From Methanoregulaceae archaeon (lineage in GTDB: Bacteria; Armatimonadota; Fimbriimonadia; Fimbriimonadales; Fimbriimonadaceae): 64,000 nucleotides of DNA. A program made the translations under genes and the position numbers. The first letter of the stretch is position 1. The number at the start of each line of letters is the position of its first letter. Below, in pieces: positions 7,450 to 51,444 of the stretch. Where the stretch lies: contig JADZEW010000016.1 of assembly GCA_020850325.1 (NCBI GenBank), positions 124,001-188,000 on the forward strand, given 5' to 3'. The notes under the pieces were generated by a model that searched no databases, was not told the DNA's origin, and worked only from the letters and a program-made list of their open reading frames with translations.

Positions 7450-7472
7450 GCGGCAGAGTGTGGCATGGCGAA

Positions 7473-8519
7473 TCACGAATAAGTTCGGCCCTTCCACTCG
7501 ATCCGGCCCGATCGCTTGAGCCAAACCGATCGCAAGATCGTGGCCGCGGCAGAAAGGCAGGTGATCGGGATGAATGGTGCCGTATAGACCGGGTACCTCA
7601 CGATTCGATCGGTGACGAGCTTCGATGCGACCAACACGCCGTAGAGGGGCAGACTCAGCGAGCCTCCAAGCATCCAGCCAACACCGATGAACACAAATAG
7701 GCCAGCGAGCAGCAAGGAGCCGAACGTAGAGCCAGCGATTTGTCCCGAGTTCTTAGACATGCCATGGAGCGCTTGCTGCAGAGTGTCGTACATCCGCACC
7801 GAAAGAGACGGGGATAGCTGAAGCACCGACACGGGCTGGCCTAACTTAGCGAGTAACCGGCCGATCTTTACATCTTCGAGGACTTCGCCTCGGAGGGTCT
7901 CGTAAGGCTTCAGTTCGTGGAGATAGGTCGTCCGCCAAGCCGCGAACTGGCCGTTCGTAAAGCGGTTGTGCCCCCGGCCGGTCCGTTGAACGAGTCCAAA
8001 GGGGTTGGTGGCGAGGAGGATCCAGGGGACCCACCCGAGGTAGAGGGGTTCGAGGCCACGCCCGGGCAGCATTCGGGGAAATCCGGTGACACAGCTCACG
8101 TTGGACGGGGTTATCTCCAACGAACCGGCGAGAACGCTCGCGAACTCATCGGTGGGCTTGGTATCGGCATCGAGAAAGACGGTCCACTCGCTCGTGGCCC
8201 GAAGTGACAGCTGATGACACGCGCGGTTCTTGCCCGTCCAACCCGGCGGCAGCGGTTCGCTAGCCGTGATCACATGAGCGCCGTGCTTGGCGGCAAGCTC
8301 CCCGGTTCCGTCCGTCGATTCGTCATCGAACACGGTCACCCGAACACCTTGCCCGACCAAGGGGGGCAGAAGATCCGCCAAGTTATGGGCTTCATTTCTC
8401 GCCGGGATCATGACCTCGAACTGAGGGGCCGCCCGATCGCGGGGTCGGCGCATCCAGATGAGGTTCGTCAGCGCAACCCCAAGAAGCGTCAGGTACAGGA
8501 AGCCGAGAACCGCACTCAC
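7473..8519 (-). CDS. Family 2 glycosyltransferase, probable carotenoid glycosyltransferase (CruC/CrtQ-like)
   Basis: A membrane-bound GT2 enzyme of about 348 residues. An N-terminal transmembrane helix (about 1-22) is followed by the GT-A domain with EVMIPARNEAHNL, the DDESTDGT loop and the metal-binding FLDADTKP. RFTNGQFAAWRTTY and three C-terminal hydrophobic segments follow. I chose GTG at 8519 (VSAVLGFLYLT) because upstream codons overlap the divergent cruF-like gene and encode no hydrophobic or GT-like sequence. Its divergent neighbours are a CruF-type protein, a carotene desaturase and a PlsC acyltransferase. Glycosylation of a hydroxylated carotenoid is therefore the inferred role; the substrate is not proven by sequence. 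Confidence 0.82.
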   Translation of the reverse strand: MSAVLGFLYLTLLGVALTNLIWMRRPRDRAAPQFEVMIPARNEAHNLADLLPPLVGQGVRVTVFDDESTDGTGELAAKHGAHVITASEPLPPGWTGKNRACHQLSLRATSEWTVFLDADTKPTDEFASVLAGSLEITPSNVSCVTGFPRMLPGRGLEPLYLGWVPWILLATNPFGLVQRTGRGHNRFTNGQFAAWRTTYLHELKPYETLRGEVLEDVKIGRLLAKLGQPVSVLQLSPSLSVRMYDTLQQALHGMSKNSGQIAGSTFGSLLLAGLFVFIGVGWMLGGSLSLPLYGVLVASKLVTDRIVRYPVYTAPFIPITCLSAAATILRSVWLKRSGRIEWKGRTYS

Positions 8520-8546
8520 GGTGATGTTCCGGTAAAGTGTCGCCCA

Positions 8547-9272
8547 TTGACACTCTCGAGCTTGTTGTTCCGCATCTACTGTTTCCTCATCGGCTTCTCG
8601 ACGCTTGGCACGCTCGCCTCTCGCATCCTTAAGCTCGATCCCGGGCCGATAGCTCCTGCTGCTTCCATCCTCATCATCGCGTGTGCGGTCTCGATTATCG
8701 CAGTTGAGCTCGCTTGTTGGCGCGCCCTCGTCGCGACCGCGCTGACGGCGTCGGCCCTCGAAATCTGCAGCCTCTACACGGGATTTCCTTTCGGCGTCTA
8801 CGAGTATTCCGACGCGTGGATTCCCACCGTTCCTTTGGGAGACCACCGATTTCCACTGCTCTTGCCGGGAGCGTGGATTCTCATCGTATGGGGAGGTTAT
8901 CTCTGGGTGAGGGGATTTTTGTCGGGCTGGACCGCGGTCGTGGCAGTTGCCGCCCTGGCGATGGTGATCGACCTTCCGATGGAGCGCGCGATGACCGAGG
9001 TGTTCGGCTACTGGACTTGGGCCCCACCGGGACCCCTGTTTGGGGCGCCAGTGATGAACTCGATGGGCTGGTTCCTGACCGCCTTCCTCTGTGCGGCACC
9101 CTTCCGCAAGGTCGAAGGGGCTTCGGACCGCTACTCCCCTCGGGTGTTGGCGTTGTTTTGCTTCTTCGTGGCGGCGTCAGGGCTGATCGCGTTCTGGGAT
9201 TGGGCTTGGGTGCTGCTCACCTTGATCGGCATCGCCTTGCTGCTGATGCGGAATCGGAGGCTCCCCTCGTAG
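8547..9272 (+). CDS. Carotenoid biosynthesis protein, CruF/DUF422 family
   Basis: A polytopic membrane protein of about 241 residues. Characterised CruF members add water at C-1' of the carotenoid psi-end to give a hydroxyl group that can then be glycosylated. Family wording is clear: EICSLYTGFPFGVYEYSDAW, then MVIDLPMERAMTEVFGYWTW, and FGAPVMNSMGWFLTAF. The best start is TTG at 8547, since no ATG lies between it and the first hydrophobic helix; TTG at 8562 is an alternative. Only 27 bases separate it from the divergent GT2 start. It is followed 10 bases later by crtI. Some DUF422 proteins have other roles, so the exact reaction is inferred. Confidence 0.83.
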   Translation: MTLSSLLFRIYCFLIGFSTLGTLASRILKLDPGPIAPAASILIIACAVSIIAVELACWRALVATALTASALEICSLYTGFPFGVYEYSDAWIPTVPLGDHRFPLLLPGAWILIVWGGYLWVRGFLSGWTAVVAVAALAMVIDLPMERAMTEVFGYWTWAPPGPLFGAPVMNSMGWFLTAFLCAAPFRKVEGASDRYSPRVLALFCFFVAASGLIAFWDWAWVLLTLIGIALLLMRNRRLPS

Positions 9273-9282
9273 AAACCATCTC

Positions 9283-10731
9283 ATGGGTCAGAAGCACGTA
9301 GTGATTGTTGGCGCGGGGGCTGGTGGACTGAGCACCGCCGCGCGCTTGGCGCATCGTGGCGTGCGCGTCACCGTGCTCGAGCAGAACGACTCGGTCGGCG
9401 GCCGCAATCGAAGACAGAGCGTCAATGATTGTCAGTTTGATGGCGGCCCGACGCTGCTCATGATGCTCGACCCGTTCCGAAAGCTGTTCTCCGACCTCGG
9501 CGAGCGGTTCGAGGAGCGCGTGCCCATCACGCTGTGCAATCCCTCGTATCGGGTGTTCTATGGGGACGGGTCTCGGATCGATGCCACCGTCGACCAGGAC
9601 GTGATGACCGAGCGTATCCGCGCGCTATGCGGCGATCGCGATGCCGAACAGTTCAAGCCGTTTCTAGAGGAACTCAAAGCGCTCTATGAGGCTTCGATCC
9701 CGACCTTTGTTCGCAAGAACTACGGCTCCCTCAAGGACTTCGCTGGCCCCCGTCAGCTTGGGCTCGTGACCAAGCATCACATGCTCTCGAACCTGGCCAA
9801 GCGCGTCGAGAAGCGATTCTCCGATCCGCGGTTGCGCATGTTGTTCTCGTTCCAAACCATGTATCTGGGGCTTTCGCCGTACGACGCTCCATGGGTGTAC
9901 GCGACCTTGGCCTACATGGAGTTTGGCGAGGGAATCTGGTACCCCTCCGGCGGTTTGCCGCGCATCACCGAAGAGATCGCGAAACTGGCCCAAGAGCGAG
10001 GCGCGGAAATCCGACTGGGAGCGCGGGTCGCCGCAATCCACCCGGGCCGAGTAACGCTCGACACCGGCGAGGAAATCACCGCCGATGCCGTGGTCAGCAA
10101 TGCCGACTTGACCTACACCAATCGGGAGTTGGTGGGCAAGCCGGATCGTCGCAAGCTGCGCTTCTCCTGTTCAGCCCACGTGATGTACATCGACTATGAG
10201 GGCGAACTTGAGAACCTTCAGCACCACAACGTGATCTTCGGTTCGGACTTTCGGGGCAATCTCGACTCGCTCTTCCACGCGTTGAAAACGCCGGAAGATC
10301 CCGCCTTCTACGTGTGTCTTGCTAAACGGACCGATCCGACGGTTGCCCCAGAGGGGCACCACAGCCTCTTCATTCTGGTTCCCGTCCCCAATCTCGACTG
10401 CGCGATGAGCGATGCCGATCAAGCTCGGCTGGAAGACACGGTCTTCGCCCGCCTGACCAAGGAAAGCGGCTTCGATCCGTCGAAGATCAGGGGCGTCGCG
10501 CGGTGCGGTCCAAAGGAGTGGCATGAGCAGCTGAACCTCGACCGCGGTGCGGCCTTCGGGCTCAGCCATGACCTGTTCCAGAGCGCCTTCATGCGCCCGC
10601 AGAACGTTCGGTCGGATGTTCCGGGGCTCTACTATGTCGGGGCGAGCACCGTCCCCGGGAATGGCTTACCGATGGTGCTCATCTCGGCAGAGCTTGTGGA
10701 GCAGCGCATGATCGGCGATGGAGTGATCTAG
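9283..10731 (+). CDS. crtI: Phytoene/carotene desaturase family protein (CrtI/CrtN type)
   Basis: A 482-residue FAD-dependent oxidoreductase that introduces conjugated double bonds into phytoene, or into a C30 homologue. The N-terminal dinucleotide-binding fold (VIVGAGAGGLSTAARLA, about 7-23) continues with GGRNRR. The C-terminal CrtI signature is LYYVGASTVPGNGLPMVLIS. It lies 10 bases after the CruF-like gene and two bases before the acyltransferase, making one operon. CrtI, CrtN and CrtO-like desaturase, isomerase and oxygenase functions cannot be separated by eye. No phytoene or diapophytoene synthase gene (crtB/crtM) occurs in the window, so the substrate must be made elsewhere. Confidence 0.9.
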   Translation: MGQKHVVIVGAGAGGLSTAARLAHRGVRVTVLEQNDSVGGRNRRQSVNDCQFDGGPTLLMMLDPFRKLFSDLGERFEERVPITLCNPSYRVFYGDGSRIDATVDQDVMTERIRALCGDRDAEQFKPFLEELKALYEASIPTFVRKNYGSLKDFAGPRQLGLVTKHHMLSNLAKRVEKRFSDPRLRMLFSFQTMYLGLSPYDAPWVYATLAYMEFGEGIWYPSGGLPRITEEIAKLAQERGAEIRLGARVAAIHPGRVTLDTGEEITADAVVSNADLTYTNRELVGKPDRRKLRFSCSAHVMYIDYEGELENLQHHNVIFGSDFRGNLDSLFHALKTPEDPAFYVCLAKRTDPTVAPEGHHSLFILVPVPNLDCAMSDADQARLEDTVFARLTKESGFDPSKIRGVARCGPKEWHEQLNLDRGAAFGLSHDLFQSAFMRPQNVRSDVPGLYYVGASTVPGNGLPMVLISAELVEQRMIGDGVI

Positions 10732-10733
10732 CC

Positions 10734-11402
10734 ATGAACCAAGAGCAGGGAGCGGTGGGGCGGGCGGTCGGCGCCATGATCCGCAGGTCCGTCCGGCGAA
10801 GGTACCGCAACGTCTATTGGAGAACGGCTCAGCCCTCGATCCCGTCCCCGGCCGTGCTGTACGCCAATCACCACGGCTGGATGGACGGGTATCTGATGTT
10901 CCACCTAGCTCTCAAGCTCGACTTGGTTTGCATCGACTGGATCGAGGAGTTTGATACCTTTCCGCTTTTCCGCTTTGTCGGGGGGATCCGGTATCCCAAG
11001 GGCGATGTGGCGGGTCGCGTCGCGGCGGTCCGTCAAACCATCCAAGAACTTCAATCCGGGAAGTCGTTGGTCATCTTTCCCGAGGGCGTTATGCACCGTC
11101 CGCCCGCGGTCCTTCCCCTCGGCAAGGCCCTCACCACCATCGCCCGGCACGTCCCGAACGCCACGCTGGCTCCGGTGGCGATCTTCCATGAAATGTCGCT
11201 CCACGAGCGACCCGAGGCTTGGCTCGCCGTCGGCCCGCCCCACCGCTTCGAGTCGTTAGATGCGTGCCGAGATCGGCTAATCGACGAGCTCGATCGTCTC
11301 AAGAACGATGTACACGCTGGGGTGCACTTCGATCTGTTGGCCGCTGGTACGCCGAGCGTTAACGAGCGCATGAGCCTCAAGCGGTTCCGCCCTAAGGGCT
11401 GA
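10734..11402 (+). CDS. PlsC-family acyltransferase, probable carotenoid-sugar acyltransferase
   Basis: A 222-residue 1-acyl-glycerol-phosphate-acyltransferase-fold protein. The catalytic HX4D motif is NHHGWMDG (His46, Asp51) and the acceptor-binding block is IFPEG (about 114-118). It begins two bases after crtI. In staphyloxanthin and chlorobactene pathways an acyltransferase (CrtO, CruD) esterifies the carotenoid-bound sugar. The local pairing of a GT2, CruF-like protein, desaturase and acyltransferase suggests the same here. A general phospholipid role cannot be excluded, but the gene is shorter and less basic than typical PlsC. Confidence 0.82.
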   Translation: MNQEQGAVGRAVGAMIRRSVRRRYRNVYWRTAQPSIPSPAVLYANHHGWMDGYLMFHLALKLDLVCIDWIEEFDTFPLFRFVGGIRYPKGDVAGRVAAVRQTIQELQSGKSLVIFPEGVMHRPPAVLPLGKALTTIARHVPNATLAPVAIFHEMSLHERPEAWLAVGPPHRFESLDACRDRLIDELDRLKNDVHAGVHFDLLAAGTPSVNERMSLKRFRPKG

Positions 11403-11405
11403 ACC

Positions 11406-13856
11406 TTATCGAACGGTGTAGCGCCCGCCCTTGACGGTAGGGAATTCCACCACGCCGTCCCCGGCATCCCTGGTCGGGACCGTCTTCCCCTGATGACTCA
11501 CAACCGCAGATGAGCCGACTCGGATGCGGCACGTTTCGCCCGCCTTCGAGAGAATCTCGAGTCCCGTGATCTTGCCCTCTGCCCACGCGAAGTCCAGCTC
11601 GAAGCCGCCGCGGGTGACCACGCCCTTGAACTCGCCGCTCTTCCACTCATCGGGCAAGGCGGGCAGCAAGCGGATGAACCCTTCGTGCGATTGCACAAGC
11701 ATCTCGGAGATCGCGGCGGTGGCCCCGAGCGTTCCATCTACCTGCATGGCTCGGCCGCACAAAGCGAAGAGCTGAGCGCAGCTCTGTTCTTTCAGATACC
11801 CCTTAAAGATCTTGTTCGCGCGATTCCCATCGCCCAGCCTCGCCCAGAGCGCCATCTTCCACGACCGGGACCAGCCCACGCCGCCGTCGCCCCGCTCCTC
11901 GAGCACCTTCTTGATGGACTCGATGAGGTCGGGGGTTTGCTGATCCCACAGCGCACGTCCGGGGTACAGGCCGTACAGGTGGGAGAAGTGCCGATGGTTC
12001 TTCTCCAGCGACGTCCAGTCGTCCGCCCACTCCTGCAAGGCTCCACTCGATCCGATCTGGGGCGGCACGAGTTGAGCCCTTGCTTCTGCGACCTTGGGGA
12101 CCATCGGCGAACTCACGCCAAGTTCCTTCGCCGCTTGAAGGTAGTAGCCAAACAGGTCGTAGAGAATCTGCATGTCGATCGACGACCCCGCGCAGATCTG
12201 CGTGCCCTGCAAGATTGCTCCGGTCACCTGATCGAAGAACGGCTTGTTGCCGCCGCCATTGGGGAAGTTCTCGGGCGAGGTGGACGGGTTGGTGACCAGC
12301 CACTTGCCATTGGGGTGCTTCACGAGAAAGTCGAGGAAGAACTGAATCGAGCCTTCCATCAGCGGCAGGTTCTTTCTTAAGAACTCCTTGTCCCGGGTGT
12401 GCTGGTAGTGCTCCCACAGGTGCGTACAAAGCCACGCTCCGCCCACGGTGAACGTGCCCCAGCTGGGGCCGTCCATCGGCGCGGCGACCCGCCACAGGTC
12501 GGTGTTCTGGTGGAAGACCCACCCCCGGGCGCCGTAGTGCTCCTTCGCAACCTGCGCCCCTTGGTCCGAGACTTCCCGAATCAGCTGAAAGAGGGGCTCC
12601 GTCAGCTCGCTCAGGTTCGCCGAATCCGCCGCCCAGTAGTTCATCTCGGTGTTGATGTTGGTGGTGTACTTGGAATCCCACCAGGGGTTCATGTCGTCGT
12701 TCCAGATGCCCTGGAGGTTCGCCGGCTGTGTGCCGGGACGGGACGACGAGATCAGCACGTAGCGGCCAAAGTTGTACACAAGCGCCCCGAGACTCGGGTC
12801 GGGTTCGGTCTGGGTCTTCTCTTTGCGCTCGGTGGTGGAGAGATACGAATTCTCGGTAGCGGGAAGCTCCAGGATGGCCCGGTCAAAGAGGCGCTTGTAG
12901 TCACTCACCGCGGCGGTTCGCAGGGCCTCATAGGATTTGCCGGCCAGCTTGCGCAGTGCATCCTCGACCCGCTGGTGCGGGTCGGCACTCACGTCTTTGT
13001 AGTTGACGAAGTTCGTCGCGGCGACAAACACCAGCGTAACCGCGTCCGCGTTTTCGATCGCCATCTCGACGCCCCGCGTCTTGACCGTGCCGCCTTCGAC
13101 CGAGGCGCGAATGCGGCCCTCGTACCTCAGCTTCCCCGCGATGCCGAGGTAGTCCGCCGACTTGCCGGTGACCGCCAATCCGTCGGAGCCCACAGGGTCC
13201 ATCTGGAAGTAGTCGGTGCCGTAGTTCGAGTGGGTTTGGTTTCGCACGCCGCGCAGGTTGGCGGTCAGGTTGAGTGCTCCCGGTCGGCTCGCCGTGAGCC
13301 GAACCACGATGGCTTGGTCGGGAGCGGAGGCGAAGACTTCGCGCGTGTACTGCACTCCGTCCACCGTGTAGGTGACGCTCGAGATGCCCGTTTCTAAGTC
13401 GAGCGCCCGGCGATAGTCGGCGGCCTGTCCGCCATGCGCCATGAACAGATGGAGGTTCGCAAAGCTCTGATACTTCTGCTGTTCGACCGGGTAGCCCATC
13501 AGCTGGCGCCCAAACAGATCGTGAGCTTCGAAGTTCTTGTCGGCGAACACGAGGCGCTGGATCTCGGCGAGGAACTTGTGCCCTCCGGGCACGACGGTGG
13601 AGTACGGCCCGCCCGACCAATAGGTGTCCTCGTTGAGTTGGATGCGTTCTTCGACGACCGTGCCGAACACCATCGCCCCGAGCCGGCCATTGCCCACGGG
13701 CAGGGCCTCATCCCACTTGGTGGCGGGAGATGCGTACCAGAGGTAGGTCGACGGATTGATGGTCTTATTCCTCGCCGGTGCGCCGGCCTGGGTCGAGGGT
13801 TGGCCAGAGGCAGCAGCAGCCAGCAACCCGATGCATACTAGCAGACTCAACTTCAC
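11406..13856 (-). CDS. Secreted glycoside hydrolase family 95 (alpha-L-fucosidase type)
   Basis: An 816-residue exported enzyme with signal peptide MKLSLLVCIGLLAAAASG. GH95 enzymes remove alpha-1,2-L-fucose (some act on L-galactose) by inversion. Visible family blocks are WDEALPVGNGRLGAMVFG near residue 50, IQLNEDTYWSGGP, LQGIWNDDMNPWWDSKYTTN in the (alpha/alpha)6 barrel, and NTDLWRVAAPMDGPSWGTF. The start is GTG at 13856, with TATACT nine bases upstream. It is followed upstream by GH78 and sulfatase genes on the same strand, which suggests a polysaccharide-degradation set. The gene ends four bases from the convergent acyltransferase gene. Confidence 0.93.
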   Translation of the reverse strand: MKLSLLVCIGLLAAAASGQPSTQAGAPARNKTINPSTYLWYASPATKWDEALPVGNGRLGAMVFGTVVEERIQLNEDTYWSGGPYSTVVPGGHKFLAEIQRLVFADKNFEAHDLFGRQLMGYPVEQQKYQSFANLHLFMAHGGQAADYRRALDLETGISSVTYTVDGVQYTREVFASAPDQAIVVRLTASRPGALNLTANLRGVRNQTHSNYGTDYFQMDPVGSDGLAVTGKSADYLGIAGKLRYEGRIRASVEGGTVKTRGVEMAIENADAVTLVFVAATNFVNYKDVSADPHQRVEDALRKLAGKSYEALRTAAVSDYKRLFDRAILELPATENSYLSTTERKEKTQTEPDPSLGALVYNFGRYVLISSSRPGTQPANLQGIWNDDMNPWWDSKYTTNINTEMNYWAADSANLSELTEPLFQLIREVSDQGAQVAKEHYGARGWVFHQNTDLWRVAAPMDGPSWGTFTVGGAWLCTHLWEHYQHTRDKEFLRKNLPLMEGSIQFFLDFLVKHPNGKWLVTNPSTSPENFPNGGGNKPFFDQVTGAILQGTQICAGSSIDMQILYDLFGYYLQAAKELGVSSPMVPKVAEARAQLVPPQIGSSGALQEWADDWTSLEKNHRHFSHLYGLYPGRALWDQQTPDLIESIKKVLEERGDGGVGWSRSWKMALWARLGDGNRANKIFKGYLKEQSCAQLFALCGRAMQVDGTLGATAAISEMLVQSHEGFIRLLPALPDEWKSGEFKGVVTRGGFELDFAWAEGKITGLEILSKAGETCRIRVGSSAVVSHQGKTVPTRDAGDGVVEFPTVKGGRYTVR

Positions 13857-50348: not shown

Positions 50349-51293
50349 CTAAGACGTTGCCATCGCGAGCTGGATCAGCTCGCGGTGGGGCTTGAAGTGA
50401 ACGTCCTCGCGAATCGTCTCGAGGACGTTCACGGGCACTTCGGGGTGGTCTTCGAGCAGCCGACCAATGACGCCCTGAACCAGATGCTCCGGCGTCGACG
50501 CGCCGCTCGATACGCCGATGACCTTTCGCTCGCGCCAAGCGATGTCGACATTGGCGGCGCTGTCCACGAGGTGGGCTTCCGTGCCACACGACTCAGCCAC
50601 TTCGCGGAGCCGATTGCTGTTCGACGACATGTGCGAGCCGACGATGATGACGAGATCGCACTGCTCGGCAAGCTCACGGATCGCCACCTGGCGGTTTGTG
50701 GTCGCGTAGCAGATGTCTTCTTTCTTCGGGCGCTCGATGTGCGGGTACTTGGTGAGAAGAGCGTCCATGGTGCGTTGGACCTCGTCGACACTCAAGGTAG
50801 TTTGGGTGAGAACCGCAAGTTTGTCGTAGTGCGGGATCTCGAGGGCGGCGACGTCCTCGGGCGACTCGACCAGCACCATGCGGTCGGGGGCTTCGCCCAT
50901 CGTTCCCTCAGCTTCGACGTGCCCGTCGTGGCCGATGTAGATCATGAAATAGCCCTTGTTCGCGTAGTGTTTGGCCTCGTTGTGCACCTTGGTGACGAGG
51001 GGGCAAGTGGCGTCGATGATCTTCAGGTTGCGCTCCGCGGACTGGCGGCGAACCGCGGGGGAGACGCCGTGGGCGGAGTACACGACGACCGAGCCTTCCG
51101 GGATGTCGTCGATGTCTTCGACAAAGATGACGCCGCGCTGCTCAAACGACCGCACCACCCACTGGTTGTGCACGATCGCGTGTCGCACGTAAAGAGGCGC
51201 ACCGTAGATTCGCAACGCGAGGTCCACGACCTCGATCGCATAGGCGACGCCCGCACAAAACCCTCTAGGGGCGGCCAGAAGAATGCGCTCCAC
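50349..51293 (-). CDS. ispH: 4-hydroxy-3-methylbut-2-enyl diphosphate reductase
   Basis: Last step of the methylerythritol phosphate isoprenoid pathway; an Fe-S enzyme. The 314-residue frame starts at GTG 51293 (VERILLAAPRGFCAGV). Cysteines for the cluster occur in GFCAG, ATCPLV and SCGTEAH regions, and VGSHMSSNSNRL and SSGASTPEHLVQ are hallmarks. The earlier in-frame start at 51368 is not needed by homology. TACAAT stands six bases before the GTG. It supplies precursors for the carotenoids encoded at 7473-11402. Confidence 0.96.
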   Translation of the reverse strand: MERILLAAPRGFCAGVAYAIEVVDLALRIYGAPLYVRHAIVHNQWVVRSFEQRGVIFVEDIDDIPEGSVVVYSAHGVSPAVRRQSAERNLKIIDATCPLVTKVHNEAKHYANKGYFMIYIGHDGHVEAEGTMGEAPDRMVLVESPEDVAALEIPHYDKLAVLTQTTLSVDEVQRTMDALLTKYPHIERPKKEDICYATTNRQVAIRELAEQCDLVIIVGSHMSSNSNRLREVAESCGTEAHLVDSAANVDIAWRERKVIGVSSGASTPEHLVQGVIGRLLEDHPEVPVNVLETIREDVHFKPHRELIQLAMATS

Positions 51294-51299
51294 GCTGTA

Positions 51300-51305
51300 A
51301 TTGTA
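51300..51305 (-). promoter_or_regulatory. Candidate -10 of ispH (leaderless spacing)
   Basis: TACAAT on the minus strand, six bases before the GTG at 51293. Confidence 0.5.
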
Positions 51306-51444
51306 CGCGGGTTGGAGTGGGGATGGCTCGGATGGGCAAGGCAGGCTCGGACAGGCTCCCATCGACACCGAGCCAGGTGAGGGTGTGGGCTCAGGGCGAA
51401 CTCATTCCAAACTAAGCCGGGCTCCGAACCTGGACCCACACCGG

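Follow-up and report, generated by a model that had tools for sequence, protein, structure and literature searches.

Four adjacent genes at 7473-11402 of the window, that is, of the whole stretch of 64,000 nucleotides analysed here (C16:124001-188000, in a Fimbriimonadaceae genome of 3.52 Mb, 41 contigs and 98% completeness), very probably belong to a pathway for a carotenoid glycosyl ester of some chain length. With less confidence, we favour an acyclic C40 carotenoid that would be hydrated by CruF, glycosylated and acylated. An earlier note, made from the sequence of the window, had proposed a cluster for a glycosylated and acylated carotenoid. Our analysis supports this proposal by the six-gene clusters found in relatives (7 of 37 loci), by the GT2-PlsC-CrtB row of a sister family (4 of 7 loci) and by co-occurrence of the genes. 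At the sequence level we observe family-level identities of the genes, conservation of their cluster, their co-occurrence and the absence of two searched cyclase families. The features of the locus are:

7473..8519, minus strand: GT2 glycosyltransferase, 348 amino acids (aa), GTG start (PF00535, 46.6 bits, cut-off 23.3)
8520..8546, no strand: gap between the divergent GT2 and CruF starts, 27 bases
8547..9272, plus strand: putative CruF-like carotenoid 1,2-hydratase, membrane protein, 241 aa from TTG 8547 (PF04240, 67.4 bits, cut-off 25)
9283..10731, plus strand: CrtI-type carotenoid desaturase, 482 aa (TIGR02734, 420 bits, cut-off 238.1; PF01593, 109.1 bits, cut-off 19.8)
10734..11402, plus strand: PlsC-type acyltransferase, 222 aa (PF01553, 36.9 bits, cut-off 23)

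Conservation of the locus in related genomes

All four open reading frames (ORFs) are open and their Pfam matches exceed the cut-offs. The tight spacing described earlier was found as stated, with 27 bases between GT2 and CruF (starts GTG 8519 and TTG 8547), 10 between CruF and CrtI and 2 between CrtI and PlsC. Since the sister species (L096) has an ATG at the position matching the in-frame TTG 8565, the CruF start may lie 18 bases downstream of 8547, in which case the divergent gap would be 45 bases. A scan of 8300-8700, which covers this gap, found no sigma-70-like promoter.

The clustering is not due to chance, because the arrangement recurs in relatives. We surveyed the surroundings of CruF at 35 loci from 34 other genomes (of 58 other genomes with a CruF match) and at 38 loci from named genomes found in the desaturase alignment scan; these 73 loci comprise 50 distinct loci. 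In 37 of the 50, CruF has CrtI as its direct neighbour on the same strand. Within those 37, PlsC comes next in 25, CrtB follows PlsC in 23, and a divergent GT2 precedes CruF in 15. The first five genes (GT2, CruF, CrtI, PlsC, CrtB) stand together in 15 of the 37, every GT2-bearing locus having both PlsC and CrtB. In 7 of the 37 a second CrtI-family gene (CrtI2) follows CrtB, which gives the full order GT2 <-> CruF-CrtI-PlsC-CrtB-CrtI2. Because all six genes form one cluster in these relatives, the window is best read as a split version of the six-gene cluster, with CrtB and CrtI2 apart. One further locus (L062/L131), in which a single open frame spans both CruF and CrtI and was scored as CrtI only, was kept outside the counts; it also has GT2, PlsC, CrtB and a second desaturase, the last beyond GT2.

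The sister family f3 presents a different arrangement. Here four of the seven crtB loci examined (L134, L135, L146, L149; L136 and L147 were outside the sample) carry a row of GT2, PlsC and CrtB on a single strand, which ties the glycosyltransferase and the acyltransferase to a carotenoid synthase without CruF and CrtI alongside. The row is not present in L141, L152 and L154 (1.5 kb flanks), in whose genomes a GT2 homologue and crtB are on different contigs.

Moreover, the genes co-occur across 113 genomes of the order, a set in which some genomes are incomplete and for which Fisher values ignore kinship. CruF was found in 59 genomes (E <= 1e-5), the CrtI family in 62 (1e-40), PF00494 in 62 (1e-20) and GT2 in 64 (1e-12). 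All 59 CruF genomes have CrtI, 56 have PF00494 and 57 have GT2, in a single copy each save one split copy. Ten genera of family f1 are mixed for CruF, and in seven of them the CruF-negative members all lack GT2. The exceptions are g29 and g32, with GT2 and no CrtI, and g31, one genome of which has GT2, CrtI and the synthase and no CruF match. Four genomes of the family (G047, G049, G050, G067) carry a PF00494 gene without a CrtI or CruF match.

Beyond the cluster, a GH95-type glycoside hydrolase gene (816 aa, 11406-13856) lies tail to tail with the cluster end. Its counterpart in the sister species is 95% identical and is followed there by about 2.4 kb of extra sequence with a regulator-like ORF, named by eye.

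Synthase, desaturases and chain length

As the earlier note had reported, the window holds no synthase. The search for crtB or crtM in the genome that it had called for recovered a single PF00494 gene (C16:32300-33061, 294 aa, 250 bits), which lies outside the window, about 100 kb upstream of the cluster. No cyclase had been seen either, and this held for PF05834 (CrtY-type, matched only below cut-off in the genome) and PF18916 (CrtYcd-type, no match), CruA/CruP-type cyclases not being part of the search. Finally, a distance of some 40 kb had been given for ispH, which is indeed about 39 kb away:

50349..51368, minus strand: ispH, isoprenoid precursor supply, unlinked to the cluster (TIGR00216, 300 bits, cut-off 187.85)

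Judged from its sequence, the synthase more likely makes a C40 than a C30 backbone. Its identity to C40 CrtB enzymes is 39% (Halarchaeum), 35% (Deinococcus), 35% (Thermus), 33% (Sulfitobacter) and 30% (Pantoea), and to Staphylococcus CrtM 24%, so that it is closer to each of the five CrtB than to the CrtM compared. According to PMC13304436 and PMC4510654, F26 of CrtM is a size gate whose change lets the enzyme make C40 products. At this position the synthase has T, and all 18 of its 18 relatives have either T or S. S or T is also what the five C40 CrtB show, with F in the compared CrtM, S in HpnC and M in HpnD. The small residue is not proof of C40, since HpnC also has S. The CrtM-type structures 5iys and 8is6 have F here, as read from the printed alignment, and the dehydrosqualene synthase entry 3ae0, which looks like a mutant, has A.

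A C30 backbone is the alternative that fares best, even though we regard it as unlikely. Two molecules of farnesyl diphosphate (FPP) would be joined by the synthase, the two CrtI-family enzymes would take the roles of CrtNa and CrtNb, CruF would hydrate C5, and GT2 and the acyltransferase would finish the molecule as in Planococcus, whose parts list (PMC8502411) is nearly matched here. Several results favour this alternative and weigh against C40. Among solved structures, the synthase scores best with C30-type enzymes: 5iys (116 bits), HpnC (109) and CrtM 8is6 (104). The first of these is labelled a phytoene synthase and is counted as CrtM in PMC13304436; among the 12 structure matches no other carries a phytoene synthase label, YisP being a 'putative phytoene/squalene synthase'. 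Because of these matches to solved structures we moved our estimate slightly toward C30, leaving C40 in front. The synthase also stays under the NCBIfam CrtB cut-offs (183.2/550, 162.7/500, 112.7/480), as do the CrtB of Thermus, Deinococcus and Halarchaeum; those of Pantoea and Sulfitobacter exceed the cut-offs of their own CrtB models. Its best NCBIfam match is HpnD (211/278.6). We do not take it for HpnD, as this match says little: the Thermus, Deinococcus and Halarchaeum CrtB and Staphylococcus CrtM match HpnD best as well. Nor does the synthase tree settle the chain length, because Staphylococcus CrtM is placed, with long branches, among the CrtB of Thermus and Deinococcus.

The prenyl synthases bear on the same question. 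There are only two PF00348 genes in the genome. One, which neighbours a gene assigned by eye as MenG/UbiE-like, encodes A five residues ahead of the first Asp motif. The other, a short-chain prenyl synthase gene (C1:379243-380118), encodes F at this place (-5) and a DDxxxxD motif, and its product scores above the FPPsyn cut-off (324.5, cut-off 275) and below that for CrtE (299.8, cut-off 460). An aromatic residue there together with DDxxxxD is given as a mark of bacterial FPP synthases in PMC11048977, and the M87F variant of Synechococcus CrtE, altered at the same position, makes FPP only (PMC7261888). A source of geranylgeranyl diphosphate (GGPP) is thus not evident, since the sole short-chain synthase resembles M87F at -5. 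Against this, an archaeal GGPP synthase with Phe-77 at the same place makes a C20 product (PMC4244643). The F at -5 is found in 30 of 30 relatives, the window's genome included (the comparison took in 30 genomes out of 110 with a match), and it is no different in genomes with carotenoid genes (20 of 20) and without them (10 of 10).

With regard to the desaturases, the window's CrtI has 4dgk, a phytoene dehydrogenase, as its best solved relative (208.5; 4rep 188.4). Among the references Halarchaeum CrtI comes first (256 bits), but Thermus CrtI (221), CrtN (219) and Pantoea CrtI (218) are level. In the desaturase tree it groups with a haloarchaeal CrtI (87/85, not starred, long row), and it is 95% identical in the sister species. 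It remains under the cut-offs for CrtID/CrtD (NF058655 355/640, NF045637 281.9/580, NF042421 191.1/500); the missed equivalog cut-off for CrtD likewise counts against our assignment. The second full-length CrtI-family gene of the genome, CrtI2, is on another contig (C21:113445-114854) and falls just under the TIGR02734 cut-off with 226.7; three further matches to this model are short and N-terminal. The best solved relative of CrtI2 is 4rep, a gamma-carotene desaturase (163.8; 4dgk 114.2), and it scores 166 bits with Staphylococcus CrtN and 163 with CrtP as compared to 157 with Halarchaeum CrtI, which favours C30. In the tree it forms a long separate branch (100/100). The C-terminal pattern searched for is unmatched in CrtI2 and its relatives (0 of 8), its PGAGLP lying outside the pattern. 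The tree and the best solved relatives (4dgk versus 4rep) lead us to infer that the window's CrtI is the main desaturase and CrtI2 a CrtD- or CrtNb-like enzyme.

Hydratase, glycosyltransferase and acyltransferase

A number of observations on the hydratase and the glycosyltransferase weigh against the favoured reading. The CruF-like protein misses the NCBIfam equivalog cut-offs for CruF (TIGR03460 64.7/154.7, NF041333 32.4/300, NF045693 28.5/400), and GT2 has CruG (NF045692) as its best NCBIfam match with 62.7 bits, far under the cut-off of 600. GT2 alone is absent from the locus of the sister species. Five of the 64 GT2-bearing genomes (G057, G078, G088, G089, G092) have GT2 without CrtI or CruF, and no divergent GT2 stands next to CruF in 22 of the 37 CruF-CrtI loci, of which two end too close upstream to show one.

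Concerning CruF, the Cytobacillus protein likewise scores under the three cut-offs (76, 48.9, 47.9). An alignment of 24 CruF sequences, the window's included, retains 20 invariant columns, the top-scoring model for the window's protein is the archaeal one, and the protein is 89% identical in the sister species. A tblastn search with it gave no match in the plasmid collection, though Cytobacillus and Deinococcus CruF are in it; these were missed because they are too divergent.

GT2 is predicted to glycosylate the tertiary hydroxyl of the carotenoid. Its DxD-type motif is DAD at 117, and 11 of 11 relatives have a motif of this type. Where the window has GT2 (7470-8520), the sister species has 639 unrelated bases (L096 5941-6579); the flanks on either side of this position are colinear at about 88% DNA identity. 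The sister genome (G065), the only further member of this genus in the set searched, has another GT2 of 53% identity (G065:C34:797-1816) that belongs to a different branch of the GT2 tree. As to the genomes with an orphan GT2, loss of the carotenoid genes with GT2 left over or reused would explain them. In a tree that includes three of these copies, that of G088 nests among the cluster-linked GT2s of its genus, and those of G057 and G078 lie among both linked and unlinked GT2s.

The PlsC-type enzyme is predicted to acylate the sugar. It has H-x4-D at 46, as do 18 of 18 relatives, and FPEG at 115, which is found literally in only 4 of the 18. The staphyloxanthin-type acyltransferase family PF18927 is not among its Pfam matches, and BLAST against the Staphylococcus PF18927 enzyme gave E 2.8, that is, no detectable similarity.

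These data also bear on the idea that GT2 and PlsC serve another lipid, glycolipid or hopanoid-like, and that only CruF and CrtI act on carotenoids. The second-best NCBIfam match of GT2 is HpnB (58.6 bits), which together with the five orphan GT2s and the many carotenoid loci without a nearby GT2 would fit such a role. Yet GT2 and PlsC are linked to CrtB in the sister family, in an arrangement of its own; nearly all CruF genomes carry GT2 in one copy; the G088 orphan, nested within cluster-linked copies, fits carotenoid gene loss; and an HpnC/HpnD pair for hopanoids would take more than the one PF00494 gene present. Overall, we consider a dedication to another lipid improbable. That the pathway is dead here and the cluster a remnant is very hard to credit: crtB and CrtI2 are scattered away from the cluster, while GT2-bearing relatives keep CrtB beside PlsC in 15 of 15 loci, but all six ORFs are open, the motifs searched for are present save the CrtI2 C-terminal pattern, and CrtI and CruF are well conserved in the sister species.

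Known systems and the proposed pathway

The closest characterised set is the crtM/crtN/cruF/GT/AT cluster (GT, glycosyltransferase; AT, acyltransferase) of Planococcus and not that for staphyloxanthin. The C30 cluster of Planococcus maritimus iso-3 comprises crtNa, crtNc, crtM, crtNb, GT, AT and cruF (PMC8502411), and so combines a synthase, desaturases, a CruF-like hydratase, a glycosyltransferase and an acyltransferase in one cluster for an acyclic product. It differs in its C30 chain, as opposed to the C40-looking synthase residue here, in a third desaturase that has no counterpart here, and in that the window's GT2 is divergent; Planococcus was compared by description only. The resemblance to staphyloxanthin put forward in the earlier note did not hold for the acyltransferase, which belongs to PF01553 and not to PF18927, so that we rejected the analogy for this enzyme. 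The staphyloxanthin-type locus of a Staphylococcus pasteuri plasmid (L085) shares GT2, two CrtI-family enzymes and a synthase with the present set; it has no CruF in the stretch compared, a PF18927 acyltransferase and a CrtM with F26.

The same four families lie side by side, as CruF-PlsC-GT2-CrtI, on a Cytobacillus spongiae plasmid (NZ_CP089998, L084). There the four genes are on one strand, identities are 24-27%, the synthase is not in the stretch compared, and the tree places the CrtI-type enzyme apart from that of the window, together with Sulfitobacter CrtD and Staphylococcus CrtP. Plasmid 2 of Deinococcus deserti (L089) has a CruF domain, PlsC, GT2, CrtI and CrtB at one locus, with crtI-crtB, a CarR/CruF fusion, DoxX and extra oxidoreductases; in the fusion (L089:3352-4800) the CruF domain (TIGR03460/PF04240) stands behind a CarR-type lycopene cyclase domain (TIGR03462). 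In Chloroflexus, compared by description only, cruF, cruC and cruD are listed for glucoside esters of 1'-OH-gamma-carotene (PMC4155588), which parallels the CruF, 1'-OH glycosyltransferase and glycoside acyltransferase functions; crtY is listed there as well, unlike here, where no CrtY over cut-off was found. Thermus has PlsC and a glycosyltransferase beside a lycopene cyclase-domain protein and no CruF in the stretch. With Planococcus, Cytobacillus and Deinococcus deserti already holding the same kit, this is a known kind of pathway.

The crtB-crtI-prenyltransferase-cruF locus of Halarchaeum (L090), whose CrtI is the one that groups with the window's, belongs to a C50 pathway. There, CrtI scores above the cut-off for CrtID (754/640); a prenyltransferase of this kind was not found here. 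The genome has three UbiA genes (E <= 0.01), for a heme O synthase (over cut-off), a DPPR synthase (NF008978, 210.1, cut-off 207) and an MqnP-like enzyme. None of the three is of the LyeJ type, so that we rejected the bacterioruberin (C50) pathway and consider a C50 prenyltransferase unlikely in this genome. The DPPR synthase gene is in a row with a short-chain dehydrogenase and a FAD oxidase-like ORF, the latter two assigned by eye (L015:7558-10573, on C26); this row resembles the actinobacterial decaprenyl-phosphoryl arabinose pathway, in an Armatimonadota genome. A role as a rhodopsin antenna was also rejected, as nothing in the genome matches PF01036 at E <= 1e-10. Across the order, 14 of 113 genomes encode rhodopsin (PF01036; L193-L202), and 13 of these 14 also have CrtI; Armatimonadetes xanthorhodopsins have been reported (PMC5459899).

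In the scheme that follows, the sequence of reactions, their regiochemistry, the chain length, the sugar, the acyl group and the role are inferred. The four genes of the window would form the tailoring half of the pathway, with the synthase and the second desaturase elsewhere in the genome. Phytoene synthase (C16:32300) would make the backbone, most likely C40, and the CrtI-type desaturase would convert it to an acyclic lycopene-like chain. CruF would hydrate the terminal double bond, producing a tertiary alcohol, and CrtI2 (C21:113445) would probably add a further double bond, like CrtD or CrtNb. GT2 would then add a sugar to the hydroxyl, and the PlsC-type enzyme would acylate that sugar. 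The order hydratase, second desaturase, glycosyltransferase, acyltransferase is taken from the Planococcus pathway (PMC8502411). The predicted product is a membrane-anchored acyclic carotenoid glycosyl ester, presumably photoprotective.

We found no description of such a pathway in Armatimonadota in the literature searched, which left out most subscription papers and does not show absence in print. The analysis thus provides a testable pigment prediction for a phylum on whose pigments we found little. A pathway that seemed incomplete in the window is now completed by genes elsewhere in the genome, and its CruF, glycosyltransferase and acyltransferase are variants far from the compared references (24-36% identity). 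Moreover, the clash between the synthase pocket residue and the prenyl synthase residue makes the choice between C30 and C40 directly testable. If C40 is true, the pathway is of an ordinary, well-understood kind. In the unlikely case that Fimbriimonadaceae use a synthase resembling CrtB and not CrtM, acting on FPP, to produce an acyclic C30 carotenoid glycosyl ester, they would have an independently derived C30 (or mixed C30/C40) pathway outside Bacillales, with a divergent gene order of its own.

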